Assembly (NCBI GenBank): GCA_025057275.1
Contig: JANWXQ010000035.1
Location: forward strand, 1 to 40,132
Direction of reading: 5' to 3'
From: Chitinophagales bacterium
Lineage (GTDB): Bacteria; Bacteroidota; Bacteroidia; Chitinophagales; UBA10324
Length of the DNA stretch: 40,132 bases
Program-made: the position numbers and the translations under genes
Notes under the pieces: generated by a model
What the model saw: only the letters and a program-made list of their open reading frames with translations
What the model was told of the DNA's origin: nothing
Databases searched by the model: none
In this document: positions 10,673 to 22,401 of the stretch, in pieces
Position numbering within the stretch: the first letter of the stretch is position 1
Layout of the letters: each line of letters opens with the position of its first letter

Positions 10673-11125
10673 TCAGCCCCGTTGTTTGCTATCCAGCAAA
10701 ATGGTGACAGGACCATCGTTGATGAGTTCCACCTGCATATTGGCGCCAAACACGCCTCGGGCCACTGGTCTTGCGGCATGGGCCTCCAGCCGGGACAGAA
10801 AAAGTTCGTAACGGGGAATGGCTGCTGCAGCAGGGGCGGCCAGTGAATAAGAGGGTCTGTGTCCCTTGCGCAAGGTAGCGTGCAGGGTAAACTGACTGAC
10901 CACCAGCAACTGTCCGTTTACCTGCTGCACCGAAAGATTCATCAGGCCTTGTTCATCAGAAAAAATGCGCAGATGGGCAATGCGGTATGCCAGCCAGTCG
11001 GCATCCGCTTCGTCATCGTCATGCGTAATGCCCACCAGCACCAACAACCCCGGCCCAATGGCGGCATGCACCTGCTGATCAACAGACACCGAAGCGCGCA
11101 ACACCCGCTGAATAACGGCCCGCAT
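10673..11125 (-). CDS. dtd: D-aminoacyl-tRNA deacylase
   Basis: Removes D-amino acids (and misattached glycine) from tRNAs in the cytoplasm. The 150-residue length fits. Both signatures are present: SQFT at residues 77-80 and NDGPVT at 136-141, which carries the Gly-Pro pair used for chiral proofreading. The frame runs ten codons further upstream, but MRAVIQRVLRASVSV is the standard N-terminus, so the ATG at 11125 was chosen. It lies 54 nt downstream of rsgA and converges on feoB with only 6 nt between stops. Confidence 0.95.
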   Translation of the reverse strand: MRAVIQRVLRASVSVDQQVHAAIGPGLLVLVGITHDDDEADADWLAYRIAHLRIFSDEQGLMNLSVQQVNGQLLVVSQFTLHATLRKGHRPSYSLAAPAAAAIPRYELFLSRLEAHAARPVARGVFGANMQVELINDGPVTILLDSKQRG

Positions 11126-11179
11126 AATCAGCAATAAGACATGCAACAGCAACAAGCAGCTACGGCCGATACCGAACCG

Positions 11180-12136
11180 TTATTCTCTTCCGTAAACCGG
11201 TTCATCTGTTTGCAATTCATGAATAATGGAACAATAGCTTTCGTAGCGGCTGACACCTATGCGGCCTTCGCTTACCGCCTGGCGCACGGCACAGCCGGGT
11301 TCCTGCAAATGCAGGCAGGTATTAAACCGGCACTGGCTGAGAAAAGTTTTCATTTCAGGAAAGTAATGACTGACCTCATGCGGCTTCAGGCTGAAAATGC
11401 CCAGTTCTTTGATGCCGGGGGTGTCCACAATAAATCCGGAAAACGGTAATTCAAACATTTCTGCATACGATGTGGTATGGCGTCCTTTGTTGTGGAAACC
11501 GCTGAGGGGTGCCGTTTTCAGATTGAGGTCAGGGATGAGTGCATTGATCAGGGTGGACTTACCCACGCCGCTGTGTCCGGCCAGCATGGTGGTTTTTTGC
11601 TTGAGCTTTTCGCGCAGGACGTCCAGATGAGCTCCCGTCCGGGCACTGATGAACAGCGTTGAATAGCCGGCTGCCTCATACAATTGTTTCCATTGTTGGG
11701 CCAGGTGCATGAGGTTTTCGTTATACAAATCCGTTTTGTTAAATGCCAGTAAAGCAGGCACGTGATAGGCTGTGGCCACTGCAAGAAAGCGGTCAATAAA
11801 ACCCAGTGATGTTCGCGGATGGGCAGTCGTAACGAGCAAGACAGCCTGATCCAGATTGGCAGCCAGCAGTTGAATGGTAGCCTGGTCGCGGGCCGCTTGC
11901 CGCACAATGCAATTGGTTCGTTCGTGCACATCGGCAATCAGGTAATCGCTGTTTTGGCAGATAAGGCTTACGCGGTCCCCCACACATACCGGATTGGTGG
12001 CGTGGTGATTGCTCAGGCGCATTTTCCCTTTTAAGGTAGCCTGCACGATGCGGCCATCAGGCAGCCGCACATTGTACCACCGGCCGGTAGATCGCATGAT
12101 GATGCCAAAAAGCGGTGTGCTCGCTTCCACAGCCAT
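11180..12136 (-). CDS. rsgA: Ribosome small-subunit biogenesis GTPase RsgA
   Basis: Circularly permuted GTPase that checks late 30S maturation. An N-terminal OB fold (STGRWYNVRLPDG) is followed by the permuted G motifs: G4 NKTD (about 133-136), then G1 GHSGVGKST (187-195), then G3 DTPG (238-241). The C-terminal zinc knuckle has Cys269, Cys274, His276 and Cys282. The ATG at 12136 is 2 nt past the stop of the GGGP synthase. An ATG at 12151 would overlap that gene, and a third ATG at 12097 is the closest to the OB fold, so the start is not certain. Confidence 0.93.
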   Translation of the reverse strand: MAVEASTPLFGIIMRSTGRWYNVRLPDGRIVQATLKGKMRLSNHHATNPVCVGDRVSLICQNSDYLIADVHERTNCIVRQAARDQATIQLLAANLDQAVLLVTTAHPRTSLGFIDRFLAVATAYHVPALLAFNKTDLYNENLMHLAQQWKQLYEAAGYSTLFISARTGAHLDVLREKLKQKTTMLAGHSGVGKSTLINALIPDLNLKTAPLSGFHNKGRHTTSYAEMFELPFSGFIVDTPGIKELGIFSLKPHEVSHYFPEMKTFLSQCRFNTCLHLQEPGCAVRQAVSEGRIGVSRYESYCSIIHELQTDEPVYGRE

Positions 12137-12138
12137 GG

Positions 12139-12906
12139 TCAATGCACCCATGCGGCAGCGTGAACGGCTGCTGCCAAAGTGCTAATGGTTTCAGTGCTTT
12201 CCTCTGTGGCCGTGCCGGCCACAATCACATCAGCGCCGGCGCGGCACAATTCCGTGGCCTGTTCCGCTGTGCGGATACCGCCGCCGACAAACAGAGGTAC
12301 CTGCGTATGTTCACGTACACCGCGAACCAATGCAGTGCTTACCGGCATGCGCGCTCCGCTCCCCGCCTCCAGATACAACGAGCGCAAACCCAATAGCTCA
12401 CCGGCCATAGCCGTACATACGGCCGTTTCGATACTGCCTGCTGGTATGGGCATTGATTGACTGACATAGGCCACTGTGGTGTGGGTTCCGCCATCAATAA
12501 GCAGGTAGCCGGTGGAAATAATCTCCAGCCGGCTGGCCCTCAGGGCAGGTGCGGCCGTTACATGCTGGCCTATCAGCAGCTCGGCATTCCGGCTGCTGAT
12601 CACCGACAACAACAACAGGGCATCGGCGCCATCGCAAATCTGCAACGGACTGCCCGGAAACAGAATGACCGGAATGTCGCTCAGGCTTTTGATGACGGTT
12701 ACGCATTCGGCAAGGGTTTGCGACAGCAACATACTTCCGCCGACCAGAAAATAATCGGTTTCGCTTTGCCGGCTGACCTGAATGACGCGCAGCAAATGCT
12801 CCGGATCGGTTTTATCCGGATCAATGAGTACGGCAAACTTTTTTTGCCCCTGCTTTCGGGCTTGAAGCAATCCGTTGTACAGGTTGTTTGTCGGCACAAA
12901 TAGCAA
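12139..12906 (-). CDS. Geranylgeranylglyceryl/heptaprenylglyceryl phosphate synthase family protein
   Basis: TIM-barrel prenyltransferase of the PcrB/GGGPS family, which links a polyprenyl diphosphate to glycerol-1-phosphate by an ether bond. Motifs: AVLIDPDK (residues 25-32), FLVGGS (53-58), YLEAGSGA (178-185, the glycerol phosphate region) and VGGGIRT (207-213). The length and pattern fit the group II enzymes known from Bacteroidetes and archaea; the product and role in Bacteroidota are not well understood. The frame starts at a TTG at 12906; a GTG at 12897 is a good alternative because the likely transcript start is near 12907. It lies 21 nt after the amidohydrolase gene, with its own -7 box inside a palindrome. 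Confidence 0.88.
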   Translation of the reverse strand: MLFVPTNNLYNGLLQARKQGQKKFAVLIDPDKTDPEHLLRVIQVSRQSETDYFLVGGSMLLSQTLAECVTVIKSLSDIPVILFPGSPLQICDGADALLLLSVISSRNAELLIGQHVTAAPALRASRLEIISTGYLLIDGGTHTTVAYVSQSMPIPAGSIETAVCTAMAGELLGLRSLYLEAGSGARMPVSTALVRGVREHTQVPLFVGGGIRTAEQATELCRAGADVIVAGTATEESTETISTLAAAVHAAAWVH

Positions 12907-12923
12907 TTTACGTCAAACGTAAA
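12907..12923. promoter_or_regulatory. Perfect 17-bp palindrome TTTACGT-N3-ACGTAAA (possible operator)
   Basis: The arms TTTACGT (12907-12913) and ACGTAAA (12917-12923) are exact inverted repeats around CAA. The site lies in the 21-nt gap between the amidohydrolase and GGGP synthase genes and covers the -7 box of the latter. A dimeric regulator bound here would block that promoter. As an RNA hairpin it would be small and followed by no T-run in the minus direction, so an operator is the better reading. Confidence 0.5.
12914..12921 (-). promoter_or_regulatory. -7 promoter element TACGTTTG before the GGGP synthase
   Basis: Read on the minus strand, TACGTTTG is an exact TAnnTTTG match. It predicts a transcript start near 12907, so a TTG start at 12906 would be almost leaderless and a GTG at 12897 would have a short leader. 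It suggests that the GGGP synthase-rsgA-dtd group can be transcribed independently of the long catabolic operon upstream. Confidence 0.5.
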
Positions 12924-12927
12924 AAAA

Positions 12928-14535
12928 TTACAGAGCTTCCAGCTGATGGATCAGCCATTGGTAACGCTGGTCAGAATGCAGATAGCGAACCACCCCTCCC
13001 ACCAGGGTAGCAACCACCTCGGTATCTGGGTTCAGCTTTAAGGGATTATCCGAAAGAATGACCAGGTCGGCCCACTTACCAGCTGCTATACTGCCATTGA
13101 ATCTTTCGGTCTGATTTGCCTGAGCGCTGCCCATCGTGTAGGCATACAGGGCTTCTTCCGGTGATAGCGCTTCCTTCGTTCCGATTACAAATCCTTCAGC
13201 ATCACAGCGCGTTACGGCTGCGCGCAGGTTGTCCATAGGATGAACCGACTGCACCACCGGAGCATCGGTGGATAAGGCCAGCGTGATGCCGGCATCCCAA
13301 ACGGAGCGGAGCGGATACAACCGCTGGCATCGCTCTTCATCCAGATAACTGCGGAAATTTTTTCCCAACTCATATAGAAAAATGGGTTGCATAACAGCAA
13401 AGACGCCTGCTTCATGCATGAAATGGAGGTTATCGGAAGAAGGCAGACCCACATGTTCCACACGATTGCCGGACTGCCGGTACCGATTCCAGAGCTGCTC
13501 ATAGGTATGGCAAACCAGATCCATGGCTTCGTCGCCGATGGCATGGGTAGCAATCCGGAAGCCGGCCTGTTGTGCTTCATCAGCAAGTTCAAGAAAAGAT
13601 TCCGGCTGCAGGCGCAGACTGCCCCTCTCATCGGTTCCGGGGTAAGGCCGGTAGAGCGCTGCCGTGCGTCCGCTGATGGCGCCGTCGGCAAAAAATTTTA
13701 CGCTGTTGATCTGAAGAAACGGTTCGTCCATTCGTTCAGGCAGGGGAAGCGCCTGCTGCTGGCCATCGGGCAGGCGTACCGCTATAGCCTGCAGGCGCAA
13801 CTGAAGCCGACCCTGCCGGCACAGCGACCTATAGACTTCTAAGAGGTCAGGCATGACGGCCGGATCGGTGGCCGCCGTTATGCCGTTTTGCAGCAGATGC
13901 CGTTGGGCAGCCTCTGTCATCACCTGATAATCGTGCTCAGAGTAGGGAGGCATGTGGCTGAGCACCAGATTCATAGCGGTTTCGGTCAGGCGGCCATTGG
14001 GTTGCCCGTCCTGACCGAATACGATTTGTCCTCCAAATGGTGGCCGTGTCCATGCCGTGATGCCGGCAGCCTGTAAAGCTGCCGTGTTGGCCACAAGCTG
14101 ATGGGCGCAGGTGCGCATAACGACTACCGGACGGTTGCTGATGACCCGATCCAGATCCTTACGGTCGGGCAGTCGGTTGTCCGGCCACAAGGCCTCGTTG
14201 AATCCCCTGGCCACCAGCCAGGGGCGCCCGGGATGCTGCCGGCCATATTCGGCAAGGGCCTGGAGCAGATCGTCCAGGGAACGGGTGCCGCGCACGTCCA
14301 GCTGATGGGTGAGCAGACTACCTACTTTCCAGACATGAATGTGGGCATCAATGAAACCGGGAACCACAGCAAGTCCGCGAAGGTCAATGGAAGCGGTTTC
14401 GGAAGAAGTGAAAGCAAGCACATCGGGCAGATCACCAACGGCAACAATACGGTCCTGCCGCAACAGCATTGCAGATGCATGAGGCTGGCGCTGATCCTGC
14501 GTCAGAATTTTTGCATTAAAAAAAACAATATCCAT
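12928..14535 (-). CDS. Metal-dependent amidohydrolase (YtcJ-like, Amidohydro_3)
   Basis: A 535-residue hydrolase of the amidohydrolase superfamily, YtcJ-like branch. The metal site is visible: HxH in FIDAHIHVW (His65, His67), a lysine in the VKFFADGAI region, histidines in RIATHAIGD and RVEHVGL, and the catalytic Asp424 in LSTDAPV. There is no signal peptide, so it is cytoplasmic. Family members hydrolyse N-acyl, cyclic amide or carbamate bonds, with substrates mostly unassigned. It is the last gene of the long minus-strand catabolic run, 23 nt after a GabT-like aminotransferase. In this context it may release the free omega-amino acid from an N-blocked or cyclic precursor. That role is inference. 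Confidence 0.88.
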   Translation of the reverse strand: MDIVFFNAKILTQDQRQPHASAMLLRQDRIVAVGDLPDVLAFTSSETASIDLRGLAVVPGFIDAHIHVWKVGSLLTHQLDVRGTRSLDDLLQALAEYGRQHPGRPWLVARGFNEALWPDNRLPDRKDLDRVISNRPVVVMRTCAHQLVANTAALQAAGITAWTRPPFGGQIVFGQDGQPNGRLTETAMNLVLSHMPPYSEHDYQVMTEAAQRHLLQNGITAATDPAVMPDLLEVYRSLCRQGRLQLRLQAIAVRLPDGQQQALPLPERMDEPFLQINSVKFFADGAISGRTAALYRPYPGTDERGSLRLQPESFLELADEAQQAGFRIATHAIGDEAMDLVCHTYEQLWNRYRQSGNRVEHVGLPSSDNLHFMHEAGVFAVMQPIFLYELGKNFRSYLDEERCQRLYPLRSVWDAGITLALSTDAPVVQSVHPMDNLRAAVTRCDAEGFVIGTKEALSPEEALYAYTMGSAQANQTERFNGSIAAGKWADLVILSDNPLKLNPDTEVVATLVGGVVRYLHSDQRYQWLIHQLEAL

Positions 14536-14558
14536 GTTCTGCGGCAGCGCAGTTGTCG

Positions 14559-15890
14559 TTATGCGGCCCGGCCGATGGCTGATTCCAGTACGGCAAGTCC
14601 CTCGTCCAGTTGATCATCGGTAATGACAGCCGGAGGCAACAGCCGGATGCAGTTGCTGTACAGGCCGGCCCGGATCAGCAGCAGGCCATGAGCTACCGCG
14701 TCGCGGATGATCTGCAGGGTGCGTTCCGGATCGGGTTTCAACGGATTTCCGTCGTGCACAAACTCCACCAGTTGCATGGCGCCCAGGCCGCGTACATCAC
14801 CGATAATCCGGTACCGGCTCTTCCATCGTTGAAGCGTCTGCTGCATGCGCATGCCTACCTGCTGCACCCGCTCCAGAAATACCGGCGAAGCCAGCTGCTT
14901 TACGGTTTCCAAAGCTGCCACACAGGCTAACGGGCTGCCGCCGTAGGTGCCGCCGACACCACCCGGATGCGGACTATCCATAATTTCAGCTCGGCCCGTA
15001 ACAGCGCTGATGGGCAAACCGGATCCGATGGATTTGGCCATGCAGATCAGATCGGGCACCACACCGCTGTGCTCACAGGCAAAAAATTTTCCCGTGCGAC
15101 CTGCTCCGCATTGTATTTCATCAAAGATCAGGACAATACCGTGCGCATCAGCCACCTGCCGCAACTGGTGCAGAAACGGCGCCGGCATGGGAATAAAACC
15201 GCCTTCCCCCTGAACCGGTTCAATGAGTATAGCCGCCACTGCCGAAGGATCAACCTGTGCGATGAACTGTTCTTCCAAACGGCGGCAACAGTAGGCAAGG
15301 TAATCCTCATCGCTCATGCCCGAAGGCCTTCGGTATGGATTAGGTGCTTCCAGCCGGTAGATGTCACTGCAGAACGGGCCGAACCCTTTTTTGAACAGAC
15401 TGTACTTGCTGGTCAGCGACAAGGTGAGCAACGTACGGCCATGATAACCGCCTTCAAAACACACCACGGCATTGCGCCGGGTGTAATGCCGTGCCAGGTT
15501 GACGGCATTTTCCACGGCTTCGCTACCCGAATTGGCCAGCAGCGTTTTTTTGGGAAAATCGCCCGGTGTCAGGCGGTTGAGCAGCTCGGCCAGTTCCACG
15601 TAGGATGGTATGGTGGCTACCAGCGTGCATACATGCAGGTATTGGTCTAACTGTGTTTTTAACGCCTCCACCACAGCAGCAGGGCGATGACCGGCATTCA
15701 ACATGCCGATACCACCGGCAAAATCCAGCAGGTAATTGCCGTCCACATCGCGCACACGGGCTCCTTCCGCCCATTCCACCACCACCTCTGTTGAACGCGC
15801 CAGCCCGGCAGGCAAAGCCTGACGGCGCCGTTCCAGCCACTGGCGCGAAAGCGGTCCGGGCACTTCAGTACGGAGCTGAATAGAGTTCAT
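14559..15890 (-). CDS. Class III aminotransferase, GabT-like (second in cluster)
   Basis: PLP-dependent omega-aminotransferase, 443 residues, closest in pattern to 4-aminobutyrate transaminase. Landmarks: DFAGGIGMLNAGH (56-68), SGSEAVENAVNLAR (121-134), the GGYHGRT loop, EPVQGEGGF (224-232), Asp257 (FDEIQ) and the PLP lysine Lys286 (MAKSIGSG). It would move the terminal amino group of GABA or a similar omega-amino acid to 2-oxoglutarate and yield a semialdehyde for the cluster's dehydrogenases. The frame extends 35 codons upstream, but the ATG at 15890 starts the natural N-terminus (MNSIQLRTEV). Sequence alone cannot separate GABA, 5-aminovalerate, beta-alanine or ornithine as substrate. Confidence 0.88.
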   Translation of the reverse strand: MNSIQLRTEVPGPLSRQWLERRRQALPAGLARSTEVVVEWAEGARVRDVDGNYLLDFAGGIGMLNAGHRPAAVVEALKTQLDQYLHVCTLVATIPSYVELAELLNRLTPGDFPKKTLLANSGSEAVENAVNLARHYTRRNAVVCFEGGYHGRTLLTLSLTSKYSLFKKGFGPFCSDIYRLEAPNPYRRPSGMSDEDYLAYCCRRLEEQFIAQVDPSAVAAILIEPVQGEGGFIPMPAPFLHQLRQVADAHGIVLIFDEIQCGAGRTGKFFACEHSGVVPDLICMAKSIGSGLPISAVTGRAEIMDSPHPGGVGGTYGGSPLACVAALETVKQLASPVFLERVQQVGMRMQQTLQRWKSRYRIIGDVRGLGAMQLVEFVHDGNPLKPDPERTLQIIRDAVAHGLLLIRAGLYSNCIRLLPPAVITDDQLDEGLAVLESAIGRAA

Positions 15891-15940
15891 TAGAAAAAGA
15901 TTTATCTGTTCAACGTAGGCTTTTGTGTTGGGTTGGCCAT

Positions 15941-16588
15941 TCAGGCAATATCTTTTGCAGCAGGCAAAACGAGCAGAGCTCCTGCATTGCCACACGTTTC
16001 ATCGTGCAGGTAATTGTTTATCAGCGAAACCACCTGAAATCCGATGCGCTGTTGCACGCTCACTGTGGGATCAAACAATTTGCCGCTTTTCACCTGTTCA
16101 AAATACTCCTCCACCGACAACTCCTGGCGGTAACGATGATAACCGTTCAGCATGCCGACAATGATCTGCCCCTGCAAGCCCAGCTGCCGGCACAACTCCT
16201 GACGGATGCGGTAAAAACCCCTTGCAATGCCGCGTTTGCGGTAATCGGGATGCACACTCACATCCAGCCCGTAGAGCCAGTTGCCATCCGGCTGATGCGT
16301 GCTCAGCCAGCCACCTCCCATAATGTCGTAAAACGTGTGCGCAGGCATATGGCTGCCATCAAAGCGATAGCGCATGGTGGTGGTTCCTCCTACTACTTTT
16401 TCTCCATCCAAAGCAACAAACTGGCCTTCGGGAAAAACCTTGAGGTGATGGCGATACTGATCAGCATGCAGGATTTCCTGATCGGCCAGGTGGGGAAATA
16501 CCAGCCGCTGCAACGCTTCCAACGCTTCGGCATGGTGCGCTTCGGTGTGGGAAATAACCAATCCGTTTCCTAAGGATAAGGAGGACAT
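15941..16588 (-). CDS. GNAT-family N-acetyltransferase
   Basis: A 215-residue protein with the GNAT fold. The acetyl-CoA loop is visible in LDVSVHPDYRKRGIARGFYR (Arg/Gly-rich). The distal part (GYHRYRQELSVEEYFEQV, GKLFDPTVSVQQRIGFQVV, NNYLHDE) strongly recalls the acetyltransferase half of bifunctional GNAT/carbon-nitrogen hydrolase proteins. Here it stands alone with no nitrilase half. The ATG at 16588 lies 4 nt after the transporter stop; the frame continues upstream only into that gene. Being embedded in an omega-amino acid cluster, it may acetylate an amine intermediate. The substrate is not known. Confidence 0.82.
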   Translation of the reverse strand: MSSLSLGNGLVISHTEAHHAEALEALQRLVFPHLADQEILHADQYRHHLKVFPEGQFVALDGEKVVGGTTTMRYRFDGSHMPAHTFYDIMGGGWLSTHQPDGNWLYGLDVSVHPDYRKRGIARGFYRIRQELCRQLGLQGQIIVGMLNGYHRYRQELSVEEYFEQVKSGKLFDPTVSVQQRIGFQVVSLINNYLHDETCGNAGALLVLPAAKDIA

Positions 16589-16592
16589 GGCA

Positions 16593-17948
16593 TCACAGAA
16601 CAAATCCGAAAAACAGGTAGAGCAGCAAAGAAACTGTAAAAGCACAAAGGGTGTAAGGAAGTTGCGACAAGGCATGCTCTACGTTATTGGTTTCGGTGGC
16701 CTGCGCCGTTAATATGGTGGCGTCGGAGAACAGGCAGGCATTGGCACCGAACACACCGGCACTGACCACAGCACCAAGAGTGAGCAATATATGAGCGCCG
16801 CATGACTGAGCCAATGGAATGACCAACGGAATTACCACAGCATACAACCCCCATGAGCTTCCAGTTGCCCAGGCAATCATTCCCATGGCCAGAAAGAGGA
16901 CAGCCGGAAGCATCTGTCCGCTGATCAATGGCTGCACTTTTTCAATGACGTAACTGGTTAAACCCATCTGATCGCCAACCTCCTTGAGCACGTAGCTCAT
17001 GACCAAAAGAGCCAGGGCATATACCATGGAGTTGAAACCGCTGAATACCGTTTCGGAAAGGATGCGAAAGGAAGCGATACGACGAAACAGGTAAAAAAGA
17101 AAGGTAAACAACACGGCAATCATCACACCTTTCAGTGCATCAAAGTCCAGAAAAAACGTAGCCAGCAACAATACGGCCAGCGGTATCAGAAAATACATGG
17201 GTGCAGCCGGTTGCGCACGGAACAAGTGGCTGGCAGGTGAGGCGGCAACAGCTTGCATACGTTGCGGCGCATGGAGCTCGGCTTTACGCATGCGTCCGAA
17301 GAGAGGCAGCCAGCCCATCACCACCACCGGAACCAGCAACACCGATATCCAACCATAAAGCACATAAGGGATGACTGACCAGTAAGCGATATTTCCGGTG
17401 CCGCTGGCGGCAAATCCGCATTCTTCCAGGATGCTGCCAATGAACAGCGTCCAGGTGGATAGCGGAACAATAACGCATACCGAAGCTGCTGTGGCATTGA
17501 CGATGTAGGCCAGTAGTTCACGCGAAATGCGAAAGGTATCGGTTACCCGTTTCATGGTTGACCCGGTAGTCAGGGCGCTCAAATAGTCATCCAGAAACAG
17601 CACGATGCCCAGCAGCCATGTGCTGAGCAGGGCCGTTCGCCGCGAGGGAATGTTTTTCAGCATCATTCCGGCAAACGATTGGGCGGCGCCGCTGCCCATC
17701 AGCAGGCCGATCAGCGAACCATAAAGCCCGCAAACCAGTATCACCCAGATGGTTTCTTTATCCATCATAACTTTATACAATGCCTCCACAAAGCCGCTGA
17801 AAAAATCAGGCCCGCCCTTCAGGGAGATGATGACAAAGCCGGTCAAACAGCCCAGCAACAACGGTTCAAAGGAAGTGCGCAAGCGGATGGCCAGCACGAT
17901 AACCAGCAAGGGCGGTATCAGCGACAGCGCTCCGTATTCTGAAGTCAT
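16593..17948 (-). CDS. NhaC-family Na+/H+ antiporter-like transporter
   Basis: Inner-membrane transporter of the NhaC/YqkI type, 451 residues, with about eleven hydrophobic segments. Conserved features include LLSTWLLGIVLFLDDYLSALTTGSTMKRV, with the Asp-Asp pair, and ATGSSWGLYAVVIPLVIPLA. Some members exchange organic acids or amino acids for Na+/H+ rather than simple cations. Lying between an aldehyde dehydrogenase and a GNAT/aminotransferase pair, a substrate importer is as likely as a housekeeping antiporter. The gene starts with ATG 66 nt after the dehydrogenase, and the GNAT gene follows after 4 nt. Substrate is uncertain. Confidence 0.88.
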   Translation of the reverse strand: MTSEYGALSLIPPLLVIVLAIRLRTSFEPLLLGCLTGFVIISLKGGPDFFSGFVEALYKVMMDKETIWVILVCGLYGSLIGLLMGSGAAQSFAGMMLKNIPSRRTALLSTWLLGIVLFLDDYLSALTTGSTMKRVTDTFRISRELLAYIVNATAASVCVIVPLSTWTLFIGSILEECGFAASGTGNIAYWSVIPYVLYGWISVLLVPVVVMGWLPLFGRMRKAELHAPQRMQAVAASPASHLFRAQPAAPMYFLIPLAVLLLATFFLDFDALKGVMIAVLFTFLFYLFRRIASFRILSETVFSGFNSMVYALALLVMSYVLKEVGDQMGLTSYVIEKVQPLISGQMLPAVLFLAMGMIAWATGSSWGLYAVVIPLVIPLAQSCGAHILLTLGAVVSAGVFGANACLFSDATILTAQATETNNVEHALSQLPYTLCAFTVSLLLYLFFGFVL

Positions 17949-18014
17949 GCAAACTGCAAGATCGCTACATCCGGCTGGGTTTTCAGCCTGTAAGCCAATT
18001 TTTTCTTACCGGCT

Positions 18015-19439
18015 TTACGTTGACAGGTTTATCGTAATAAGTTTTTTTTCCATGTATTCCAACATCCCTTCGCTGCCGCTTTCATGTCCCAGCCCGCTCT
18101 GCTTCCAGCCTCCGAAGGGCGCTTCCGTGCCGTGGGGTGCCCAGTCGTTAATGCCGATCATGCCAAACTGCAGACCTTCCGCAGCCGCATAAGCCATCTT
18201 CAGGTTGTTGGTCCACACGTAGGCGGCCAGGCCGTATGGGGTATCGTTTGCCTGCTGAAGCACTTCTTCCAGATCGCTGAAGGGTGTAACAGGCAATACA
18301 GGTCCGAAAATCTCCTGCTGCCGGAACACCGGCGCTGCCTGCCGGTCAGCCACGACAGCGGGCGTAACGAAAAACCCTTTGTCCAATGTTTGTCCGCCTG
18401 TAAGCACGGTGGCACCCTGTTGTTTGCTGTGTTCCAGGAGAGTGAGCACATGCTCCTGCTGTCGTTTGTTGATCAGCGGCCCCATGGCCACCCCTTCTTC
18501 CAATCCATAGCCTACGCGCAACTGCCGGGCATGCTCACTGCTCAGATGAAGAAAATCATCATAAATGCGTTGAGCCACATAAAAGCGCTGGGGCACGTTG
18601 CAAACCTGACCGGCATTACGAAAACGTCCCGTCACTGCTGTGCGGGCAATTTGCTCCAGCGGAACATCTTCAAAGATGAGCACCGGCGCATTCCCTCCGA
18701 GTTCCAGCGCCAGCCTTTTCACCGTTCGTGAGGCGCCGTCCATCAGCAATTTGCCTACTCGCGTGCTTCCGGTAAAGGAAATTTTACGGACAGCAGGATG
18801 ATTCAAAAACGACTCGCCGATGCGGGCGGCATCGCCGTTCACCAAGTTGGCCACACCGGCCGGCAGGCCGGTTTCGTGAAGCGCCTGGAACAGGTTCATA
18901 GATGATAACGGAGTATATTCCGATCCCTTGCAAACCACTGTGCAGCCGGCAGCCAGGGCAGCGGCGCAGGCACGGGCCAGGTTATAGGCAGGGAAGTTCC
19001 AGGCAGTAATGATGCCCACCACCCCCATAGGTTCCCAAACCACCTGCATGCGCTTTTCTGCCCGTTTGGACGGAATCACGCGCCCGTAGGCCCGTTTGGC
19101 TTCTTCTCCGTACCACTCAAACAAGTCAGCAGCTACCATCCACTCGCCCAAAGCTTCTTTCAGCGGTTTTCCGGCTTCCATCGTGGTTTCAGGCGCAAAG
19201 CGCTCGGCATGGGAGCGGATCAGATCGGCACACCGGCGCAGAAAGGCGCCCCGTTCCCATCCCGATAACTTTTTCCAGGATGCAAAAGCCGATTCGGCAG
19301 CGGCAATGGCCTCCAGACTGTCCCGTTCATCGCCGAAAGGCACGTCGGCAAACCATTCTTCCGTAGCAGGATTTTGTACGTGCCATAGACCTCCCCCCAG
19401 GGCATCGCACCACCTGCCGTTGATGTATTGCTTTTTCAT
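18015..19439 (-). CDS. NAD(P)-dependent aldehyde dehydrogenase, succinate-semialdehyde/lactaldehyde type (second in cluster)
   Basis: A 474-residue aldehyde dehydrogenase. Catalytic residues: Asn148 (AWNFP), Lys171 (CKGSE), Glu246 (LELGGN) and the nucleophile Cys280 (NAGQVCN). The C-terminal EAPFGGWKQSGLGHESG is typical of the succinate-semialdehyde dehydrogenase branch. The GQVCN context also recalls lactaldehyde dehydrogenase AldA. It would oxidise the semialdehyde made by the neighbouring GabT-like enzyme. It is clearly different from the other dehydrogenase in the cluster, so the pair is not a recent duplication. The 44-nt gap upstream is AT-rich and has an inverted repeat. Confidence 0.9.
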   Translation of the reverse strand: MKKQYINGRWCDALGGGLWHVQNPATEEWFADVPFGDERDSLEAIAAAESAFASWKKLSGWERGAFLRRCADLIRSHAERFAPETTMEAGKPLKEALGEWMVAADLFEWYGEEAKRAYGRVIPSKRAEKRMQVVWEPMGVVGIITAWNFPAYNLARACAAALAAGCTVVCKGSEYTPLSSMNLFQALHETGLPAGVANLVNGDAARIGESFLNHPAVRKISFTGSTRVGKLLMDGASRTVKRLALELGGNAPVLIFEDVPLEQIARTAVTGRFRNAGQVCNVPQRFYVAQRIYDDFLHLSSEHARQLRVGYGLEEGVAMGPLINKRQQEHVLTLLEHSKQQGATVLTGGQTLDKGFFVTPAVVADRQAAPVFRQQEIFGPVLPVTPFSDLEEVLQQANDTPYGLAAYVWTNNLKMAYAAAEGLQFGMIGINDWAPHGTEAPFGGWKQSGLGHESGSEGMLEYMEKKLITINLST

Positions 19440-20970: not shown

Positions 20971-22401
20971 CTAATCGGCGAAATAGATACTTACCACTGC
21001 TATGGCGGTAAGCACACAGACCAAATCCACCAGCAACATGGCACCGATGGTGTAGCGGGTGTTTTTCACCTGAACGGCTCCGTAATACAGCGCTACCACG
21101 TAAAATGTGGTTTCGGCAGCGCCCTGAAAGAGCGTGGACAGAATGCCTGCAAAAGAATCGGGACCATACGTTTTCATGGCATCCAGCATAAAAGCCCTGG
21201 AACCGCCGGCGCTGAACGGGCGCATGAGCGCTACCGGAATGGCTTCGATAATACCCTCGCTGACGCCCAGGCGCTGTAATCCTGCACCAAGCCCGCCGAT
21301 TACCAGTTCCATAAGGCCGCTGTTTCTAAACAGACTGATGGCGCCCAGCAGCGCTACCATGTAGGGAAGAATCCGCAGGCCGGTCTGAAACCCTTCTTTG
21401 GCTCCGGTAACAAAAGAATCAAACAGGTTGGTGTTGTTGGCCTGGAATTCTTTTTCCTTCCACCATGCGTATGCAATAATTGCTAATATGATGAACAGCA
21501 GCAGGCCGTTGCTCAGGTTGGCGGTAAACGAGAGTCGCATACTCAGGCTCATGCGGGTAAGCAGGAACAGCAGCAGGGCAATCAGGGCAGCTATGCCGCC
21601 CACCACCATCACCACCACCGGTTGCAACAGGTTGATGCGCTGGCGCAGCCCGACAATCACCAGCGCCGCCACTGTTCCGATGAATGAGGTGATGATCAGC
21701 GGCAACATGATATCGGTGGGATTGGCGGCCTGGAGCGCGGCACGATAACTGATCAGCGAAGTGGGTATCAGGGTAAGTCCGGCAGCATGTAGGGTCAGAA
21801 ACATGATCTGACTGTTGGTTGCCACGTCTTTGTTCGGGTTGACTTCCTGCATGCTCTGCATAGCTTTCAGGCCGAACGGTGTTGCCGCATTATCCAGACC
21901 CAGCAGATTGGCGGCAAAATTCATGGTCATGAATCCATAGGCCGGATGGCCCTTGGGCAGATCCGGAAAGATGCGGGTGAAAAACGGAGCCAGCCTGCGT
22001 GATAACTGCTCGGTGGCTCGTGAATCAGTGAGCAGTTGCATGAGTCCGCAGAAAAAGGTGAGGTAACCGATCAGGGGCAACCACAGGTCAGTAACCGCAT
22101 AACGGCAGGTGGGAAACAAGCCGTCAGCCGGTTGCTTGCCGTAGCTTACCTCCACCAGTCCGGCTTCATTGAGGCGCAACAGGGTGTCGCTGCGCACGAT
22201 ACCTTCTGCTCCGGCCCGGCGGAGTTGCTCCAACAAACTGTCTGGCACCTGGTGCGGCTCCCACTGACCGATCACCACCGGCTGACCCTGCTTGCCGTTC
22301 AGCAGGGGTCCCAGCGAATACATCTGACCGGCAAGCAACTGCACGAAGGCCCATCCTATGCTGGCAAGCAGCAGAAAGGCAAAAAAGCGGGCCAATACCA
22401 T
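20971..22401 (-). CDS. Fused SpmA-SpmB-like nucleoside-recognition (Gate) membrane protein
   Basis: Integral membrane protein of 476 residues that joins two Gate-domain halves. The first half resembles SpmA (NLLGLDNAATPFGLKAMQ, then AGLTLIPTSLISYRAA). The second resembles SpmB (ILPYMVALLGAISLFRNSG, IPVALMRPFSAGGSR, GAAETTFYVVALYYG). In Bacillus these are two separate spore-maturation genes. Non-sporulating bacteria also carry them, and the Gate superfamily is transporter-like. Residues about 30-110 form a large soluble loop between the first two hydrophobic segments. Placement between GabT-like and TlpA-like genes suggests inner-membrane passage of the cluster's substrate or product, by inference. 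Confidence 0.85.
   Translation of the reverse strand: MVLARFFAFLLLASIGWAFVQLLAGQMYSLGPLLNGKQGQPVVIGQWEPHQVPDSLLEQLRRAGAEGIVRSDTLLRLNEAGLVEVSYGKQPADGLFPTCRYAVTDLWLPLIGYLTFFCGLMQLLTDSRATEQLSRRLAPFFTRIFPDLPKGHPAYGFMTMNFAANLLGLDNAATPFGLKAMQSMQEVNPNKDVATNSQIMFLTLHAAGLTLIPTSLISYRAALQAANPTDIMLPLIITSFIGTVAALVIVGLRQRINLLQPVVVMVVGGIAALIALLLFLLTRMSLSMRLSFTANLSNGLLLFIILAIIAYAWWKEKEFQANNTNLFDSFVTGAKEGFQTGLRILPYMVALLGAISLFRNSGLMELVIGGLGAGLQRLGVSEGIIEAIPVALMRPFSAGGSRAFMLDAMKTYGPDSFAGILSTLFQGAAETTFYVVALYYGAVQVKNTRYTIGAMLLVDLVCVLTAIAVVSIYFAD

Follow-up and report, generated by a model that had tools for sequence, protein, structure and literature searches.

A perfect palindrome on the -7 promoter box of a GGGP synthase gene in a Chitinophagales bacterium, probably symmetrical by chance

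Dimeric bacterial repressors, for example those of the TetR or GntR type, have operators. For promoters of the primary sigma factor of Bacteroidota (sigma-ABfr / sigma-A), the portion of PMC9723704 available to us places the sigma-A box TAnnTTTG at -12 to -5 in Flavobacterium psychrophilum, where 5.5% of messages are leaderless and leaders have a median length of 24 bp, and the same -7 consensus is given for Bacteroides in the available text of PMC7366714. That text also describes a TTTG at about -33 in Bacteroides, which it reports as not identifiable in F. johnsoniae. Bacteroidota GGGP synthases make GGGP with G1P in vitro, according to the accessible part of PMC7852524, which cites Peterhoff et al. 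2014.

We analyzed a stretch of 40,132 nucleotides from a Chitinophagales bacterium (hereafter the window, meaning this stretch at its full length), for which a preliminary description had proposed a repressor operator ahead of a GGGP synthase gene. The features concerned are listed here.

10673..11155, minus strand: dtd, D-aminoacyl-tRNA deacylase, present in 14/15 family loci
11180..12151, minus strand: rsgA, small-subunit-dependent GTPase, next gene in 15/15 family loci
12142..12897, minus strand: GGGP synthase, PcrB family (PF01884), NF003198 and TIGR01769 above cut-off
12895..12897, minus strand: probable start codon (GTG) of GGGP synthase; alternative TTG at 12904-12906
12907..12923, no strand: perfect 7-3-7 inverted repeat; its left arm overlaps the -7 box and its right arm is unconserved
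12907-12913: right arm of the palindrome, ACGTAAA on the minus strand, kept by neither the congener nor the other scored sites
12909..12909, minus strand: predicted transcription start (A), with the box taken as -12 to -5 and F. psychrophilum spacing (available text of PMC9723704)
12914..12921, minus strand: putative -7 promoter box TACGTTTG of the GGGP synthase gene, fitting TAnnTTTG; assigned from conservation and published consensus
12928..14535, minus strand: amidohydrolase (PF07969), last gene of the upstream co-directional cluster

We favour, with a probability of roughly 88%, an ordinary promoter of the GGGP synthase-rsgA-dtd unit, in which the symmetry of the palindrome would be due to chance. 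A Bacteroidota housekeeping promoter (sigma-A type) would occupy the short gap between the amidohydrolase and GGGP synthase genes, and RNA polymerase would recognize the -7 box TACGTTTG (12921-12914, minus strand). Transcription would most likely start near 12909 and proceed through a leader of approximately 12 nt to GTG 12897, and the palindrome would result from seven bases past the box that happen to complement the seven at the start of the box. That the box serves as a promoter and that transcription begins near 12909 are both what we infer from sequence.

The repeat itself is exactly as had been described, in sequence and position: a 17-base perfect inverted repeat, TTTACGT-CAA-ACGTAAA, at 12907-12923, with 7-bp arms and a 3-nt loop. 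On the minus strand it reads TTTACGT-TTG-ACGTAAA from 12923 to 12907 (TTTACGTTTGACGTAAA) and includes TACGTTTG at 12921-12914, which fits the -7 box of the GGGP synthase gene. Across the gap the minus strand carries ...CTCTGTAATTTTTTTACGTTTGACGTAAATTGCTATTTGTGCCGACAAAC..., in which TAA is the amidohydrolase stop, abutting the T-run that precedes the -7 box, and the next open frame is that of GGGP synthase. The gap measures 30 bp with the GTG 12897 start and 21 bp with the TTG 12906 start. We consider GTG 12897 probably to be the start codon; it lies 16 nt past the box in the window, and GTG lies 17 nt past the box in the congener (G001). We prefer it to TTG 12906 because a GTG is present in the congener, which has no in-frame TTG at the place of the window's alternative start, and also since leaderless messages are few in F. 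psychrophilum (5.5%, median leader 24 bp; available text of PMC9723704). In the window, no TTG was found at the -33 spacing, taken as 17-23 nt ahead of the box. Such a TTG is uncommon in the sampled regions of this genome also (5 of the 39 regions having a box), and it was therefore not treated as defining for a sigma-A promoter.

Comparison with relatives drew on a search of 60 genomes, the window's own included, 56 of which carry the gene; upstream loci were taken from 30 of these 56. To these were added 80 named loci out of 585 confirmed in GTDB genomes, many of them titled Chitinophagaceae or Chitinophaga and others only Bacteroidetes, together with some Saprospiraceae, two Bacteroidales and one Flavobacteriales. 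The resulting 110 loci, after removal of 3 duplicates, gave 107 distinct upstream regions including that of the window. Family counts use all 15 loci from the 15 of 16 family genomes that have GGGP synthase, and the genus comprises two genomes, one of them the window's own.

The boundary and the GGGP synthase-rsgA-dtd unit that had been proposed hold up in these loci. RsgA is the next gene in all 15 family loci and dtd is present in 14, in which the order of the three genes is kept; in L017, dtd was not found within 1.5 kb. Among the 92 non-family listed loci, an rsgA relative was seen in 11 and dtd in 2; the flanks compared were 1.5-2.5 kb long, some of them cut by contig ends. Upstream, a relative of the amidohydrolase is the direct neighbour in 3 of the 15 family loci (L005, L006 and L015), and in L007 a piece matching the amidohydrolase ends approximately 0.8 kb upstream. 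Since the downstream order is kept and the upstream amidohydrolase is found in only 3/15 loci, the promoter is most likely that of the GGGP synthase unit and not part of the upstream cluster. Within a 14-kb stretch of the congener, the gene order beginning at the end of the aldehyde dehydrogenase gene and running to a glycosyltransferase-like gene is that of the window. A search for GGGP synthase in viral contigs, reaching close relatives only, returned none.

The upstream cluster (12928-19439, minus strand) is collinear in the congener over the stretch compared. It encodes an aldehyde dehydrogenase nearest to SSADH, an NhaC-like antiporter (PF03553) and the amidohydrolase, as well as a GNAT protein with no NCBIfam match and a class III transaminase that is nearest to GABA transaminases, below cut-offs.

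The overlap of the palindrome with a -7 element of the GGGP synthase gene, as first described, is corroborated by the family: in 14 of the 15 genomes having the gene, own genome included, TAnnTTTG occurs in the 75 nt that precede the anchor codon, and the exception, L017, carries TAGGTTCT. When all listed loci are considered, TAnnTTTG lies within 110 nt upstream in 46/107; shuffles give 7.2, and a control region lying 220-330 nt upstream gives 5. If C is also allowed at the first box position, a relaxation picked post hoc with the data already seen, the count is 88/107 versus 7.2 in shuffled 75-nt regions. In many other loci, CATTTTTG is found near the corresponding place. Outside the family, many of the loci L057-L135 show a T-run and then TGCATTTTTG, which resembles a -7 box but has C for T at the first position; TGCATTTTTG occurs in 22/107 listed loci and in none of the shuffles.

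The symmetry behaves differently. The single available congener keeps TAATTTTTTTACGTTTG at 17/17 positions, and its right arm is GATCCAAA where the window has ACGTAAA; after TAATTTTTTTACGTTTG it reads GATCCAAATCGC and the window ACGTAAATTGC. An identical TTTACGTTTG is present in L006, L008 and L015, and in L008 and L015, which belong to two other genera, it is followed by TCACCAT and ACAAATC, respectively. When symmetric arms were scored at 47 TAnnTTTG sites, the window reached 7/7 and the next best site 4/7. The congener, L008, L015 and the 47-site scoring thus all point to a retained box whose symmetry is not shared. Conservation of the palindrome upstream of GGGP synthase orthologues, which the preliminary description had put forward as a test, was found at 1/47 sites, namely the window's own, and the palindrome was absent from the other GGGP synthase upstream regions among the 107 listed. 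In these sequence comparisons, conservation extends to the box and to the order of the genes downstream but does not include the symmetry.

Other inverted repeats do occur in these regions. Those with arms of at least 6 within 75 nt were found in 37/107 listed regions, versus 19.75 in single-base shuffles, which break up A-run/T-run pairs, and many of the 37 are such pairs by eye; they were not read as operators. A different palindrome, of 12 bp (TTTGGATCCAAA), is present in the congener, where it overlaps the end of that genome's own box and is centred a few bases further on. We take it to be a chance occurrence, because dyads with arms of at least 6 turn up in approximately 18% of the shuffled regions.

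Within its own genome (2.48 Mb), a pattern search showed the exact 17-mer to be single-copy, so that the genome-wide search suggested earlier yielded no second exact copy. Allowing up to 2 mismatches gave 11 sites, the window's own among them, versus 12 for the reversed control pattern, and hence no excess of near-matches. The 10 further near-matches all lie inside open reading frames (mechanically called, at least 80 codons; 7 + 3 sites), and there is no other intergenic copy among them. Up to 3 mismatches within the window gave 1 site versus 0.75 expected, and a search of the 16 family genomes with up to 1 mismatch gave 7 sites, including that of the window, versus 68 for the reversed control. 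Two copies of TTTCCGTTCCACGTAAA lie 618 bases apart on one contig of another genome (G002:C150:1588-1604 and 2206-2222), the first within L136, and are perhaps part of a repeated stretch.

Palindromes of this form are frequent in the genome. Perfect repeats with 7-bp arms and a 3-nt loop number 4 in the window and 37 in 345,148 bases sampled from this genome, a sampled density of approximately 1 per 9-10 kb, and one such palindrome somewhere in 40 kb is therefore expected. This sample is non-random, every stretch coming from contigs that hold near-matches. With loops of 0-10 the counts are 49 in the window and 408 in the sampled bases, overlapping registers being scored separately. The half-site TTTACGT occurs on the plus strand of the window at 12907, 18014 and 19453, and its complement ACGTAAA at 12917, the palindrome's own arm, and at 21098, 35297 and 39588; of these four, the preliminary description had given just the one at 12917. 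The half-sites previously noted at 18014 and 19453 are thus present, but they lend no support to an operator: the window has five isolated 7-mers of this kind, these two among them, and approximately 5 copies of any 7-mer are expected on both strands of 40 kb (arithmetic, even base use).

The use of the box across this genome was assessed in 210 upstream regions from the 345-kb sample and the window, with genes called from ATG starts only. TAnnTTTG was found in 39 of these regions in the sense direction, in 18 antisense and in 7 reversed, an enrichment upstream of the genes of this genome. Exact TACGTTTG had 0 sense matches in these regions, ATG-only calling leaving out the box of the GGGP synthase gene. 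Over all 385 kb, exact TACGTTTG was counted 6 times versus 14 for its reverse, and TAnnTTTG 120 times versus 202 for its reverse, a scarcity that avoidance inside genes, as a candidate cause, would give. The longest dyad overlapping any of the 39 boxes has 6-bp arms (4/39), so that the 7-bp arm of the window exceeds the sample. With one side fixed and nine loop lengths, a 7-bp match has a chance of approximately 1 in 1,800 (arithmetic, even base use), and with an assumed couple of thousand promoters per genome, about one 7-bp dyad placed on a box is expected. The placement of the palindrome on a promoter is a less common aspect than its mere presence.

If the palindrome were an operator, a dimeric repressor would bind both TTTACGT half-sites, cover the -7 box and the start, and shut off GGGP synthase-rsgA-dtd in this species. 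In favour of this, the perfect 7-bp symmetry sits on the box and the predicted start site, none of the 39 sampled boxes carries a dyad with arms as long, the 17-mer has no second exact copy in the genome, and the congener has another, shifted palindrome nearby. Nevertheless, the right arm is unconserved in the congener and at the other scored sites (47 sites, next best 4/7), the 16 family genomes show no excess over the control pattern, and such palindromes are common in this genome. There is also no second intergenic site among the 10 near-matches, a point on which a single-site operator would fail likewise. We found no indication that a protein reads the symmetry, and the operator function attributed to the repeat is, in our view, highly improbable. 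From the congener's TTTGGATCCAAA, an operator that has diverged between the two species of the genus may be envisaged; a species-specific, single-site operator, mutated into place downstream of the conserved -7 box and repressing an ether-lipid gene along with rsgA and dtd, appears extremely unlikely.

Two further explanations dispense with a repressor. The inverted repeat could act as RNA, forming a hairpin that ends or processes the amidohydrolase message, which would be compatible with a promoter at the same place. The minus strand folds at -5.2 kcal/mol (z -1.77, a value equalled or bettered by 12 of 200 shuffles), but the stem is A+T-rich, its right arm is unconserved in the congener, the T-run precedes the stem with none after it, and the only hit of a terminator scan of 12600-13200, at 13072-13060, lay outside the palindrome; we regard such a hairpin as having only a very slim chance of being correct. 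An intrinsic terminator at the palindrome was rejected, there being no G+C-rich stem with a T-run after it and the T-run lying upstream of the stem. The unit could also have no promoter here and be read through from the upstream cluster, TACGTTTG itself being a chance match, as would agree with co-directional genes separated by a 30-bp gap and with the lack of TTG at -33. The presence of TAnnTTTG in 14/15 family genomes, with the amidohydrolase directly upstream in only 3/15 loci, makes read-through very unlikely. A housekeeping promoter carrying a fortuitous symmetry thus remains our preferred explanation, and the promoter itself is of a known kind; overall the locus is ordinary.

The locus serves mainly as a cautionary case. 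Half of a palindrome can come from the -7 box that this phylum uses, and a perfect repeat on a promoter is therefore weak evidence for an operator unless it is conserved. By-products of the analysis are the likely start codon, GTG 12897, and the GGGP synthase-rsgA-dtd order kept in the family.

With respect to known systems, the window resembles the operators of dimeric repressors (TetR / GntR type) in having a perfect inverted repeat on a promoter, and differs from them in that its symmetry is unconserved and no further intergenic copies were found. Compared to other Bacteroidota GGGP synthase genes, the window gene belongs to the same enzyme family and has nothing unusual; linkage to rsgA occurs in 15/15 family loci and in 11/92 of the other listed loci. 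Set against the Bacteroidota primary sigma (sigma-ABfr / sigma-A) promoter, the window has no TTG at the -33 spacing and its start site is predicted; TACGTTTG fits TAnnTTTG, lies 16 nt before the probable start codon, and has TAnnTTTG counterparts at GGGP synthase orthologues.
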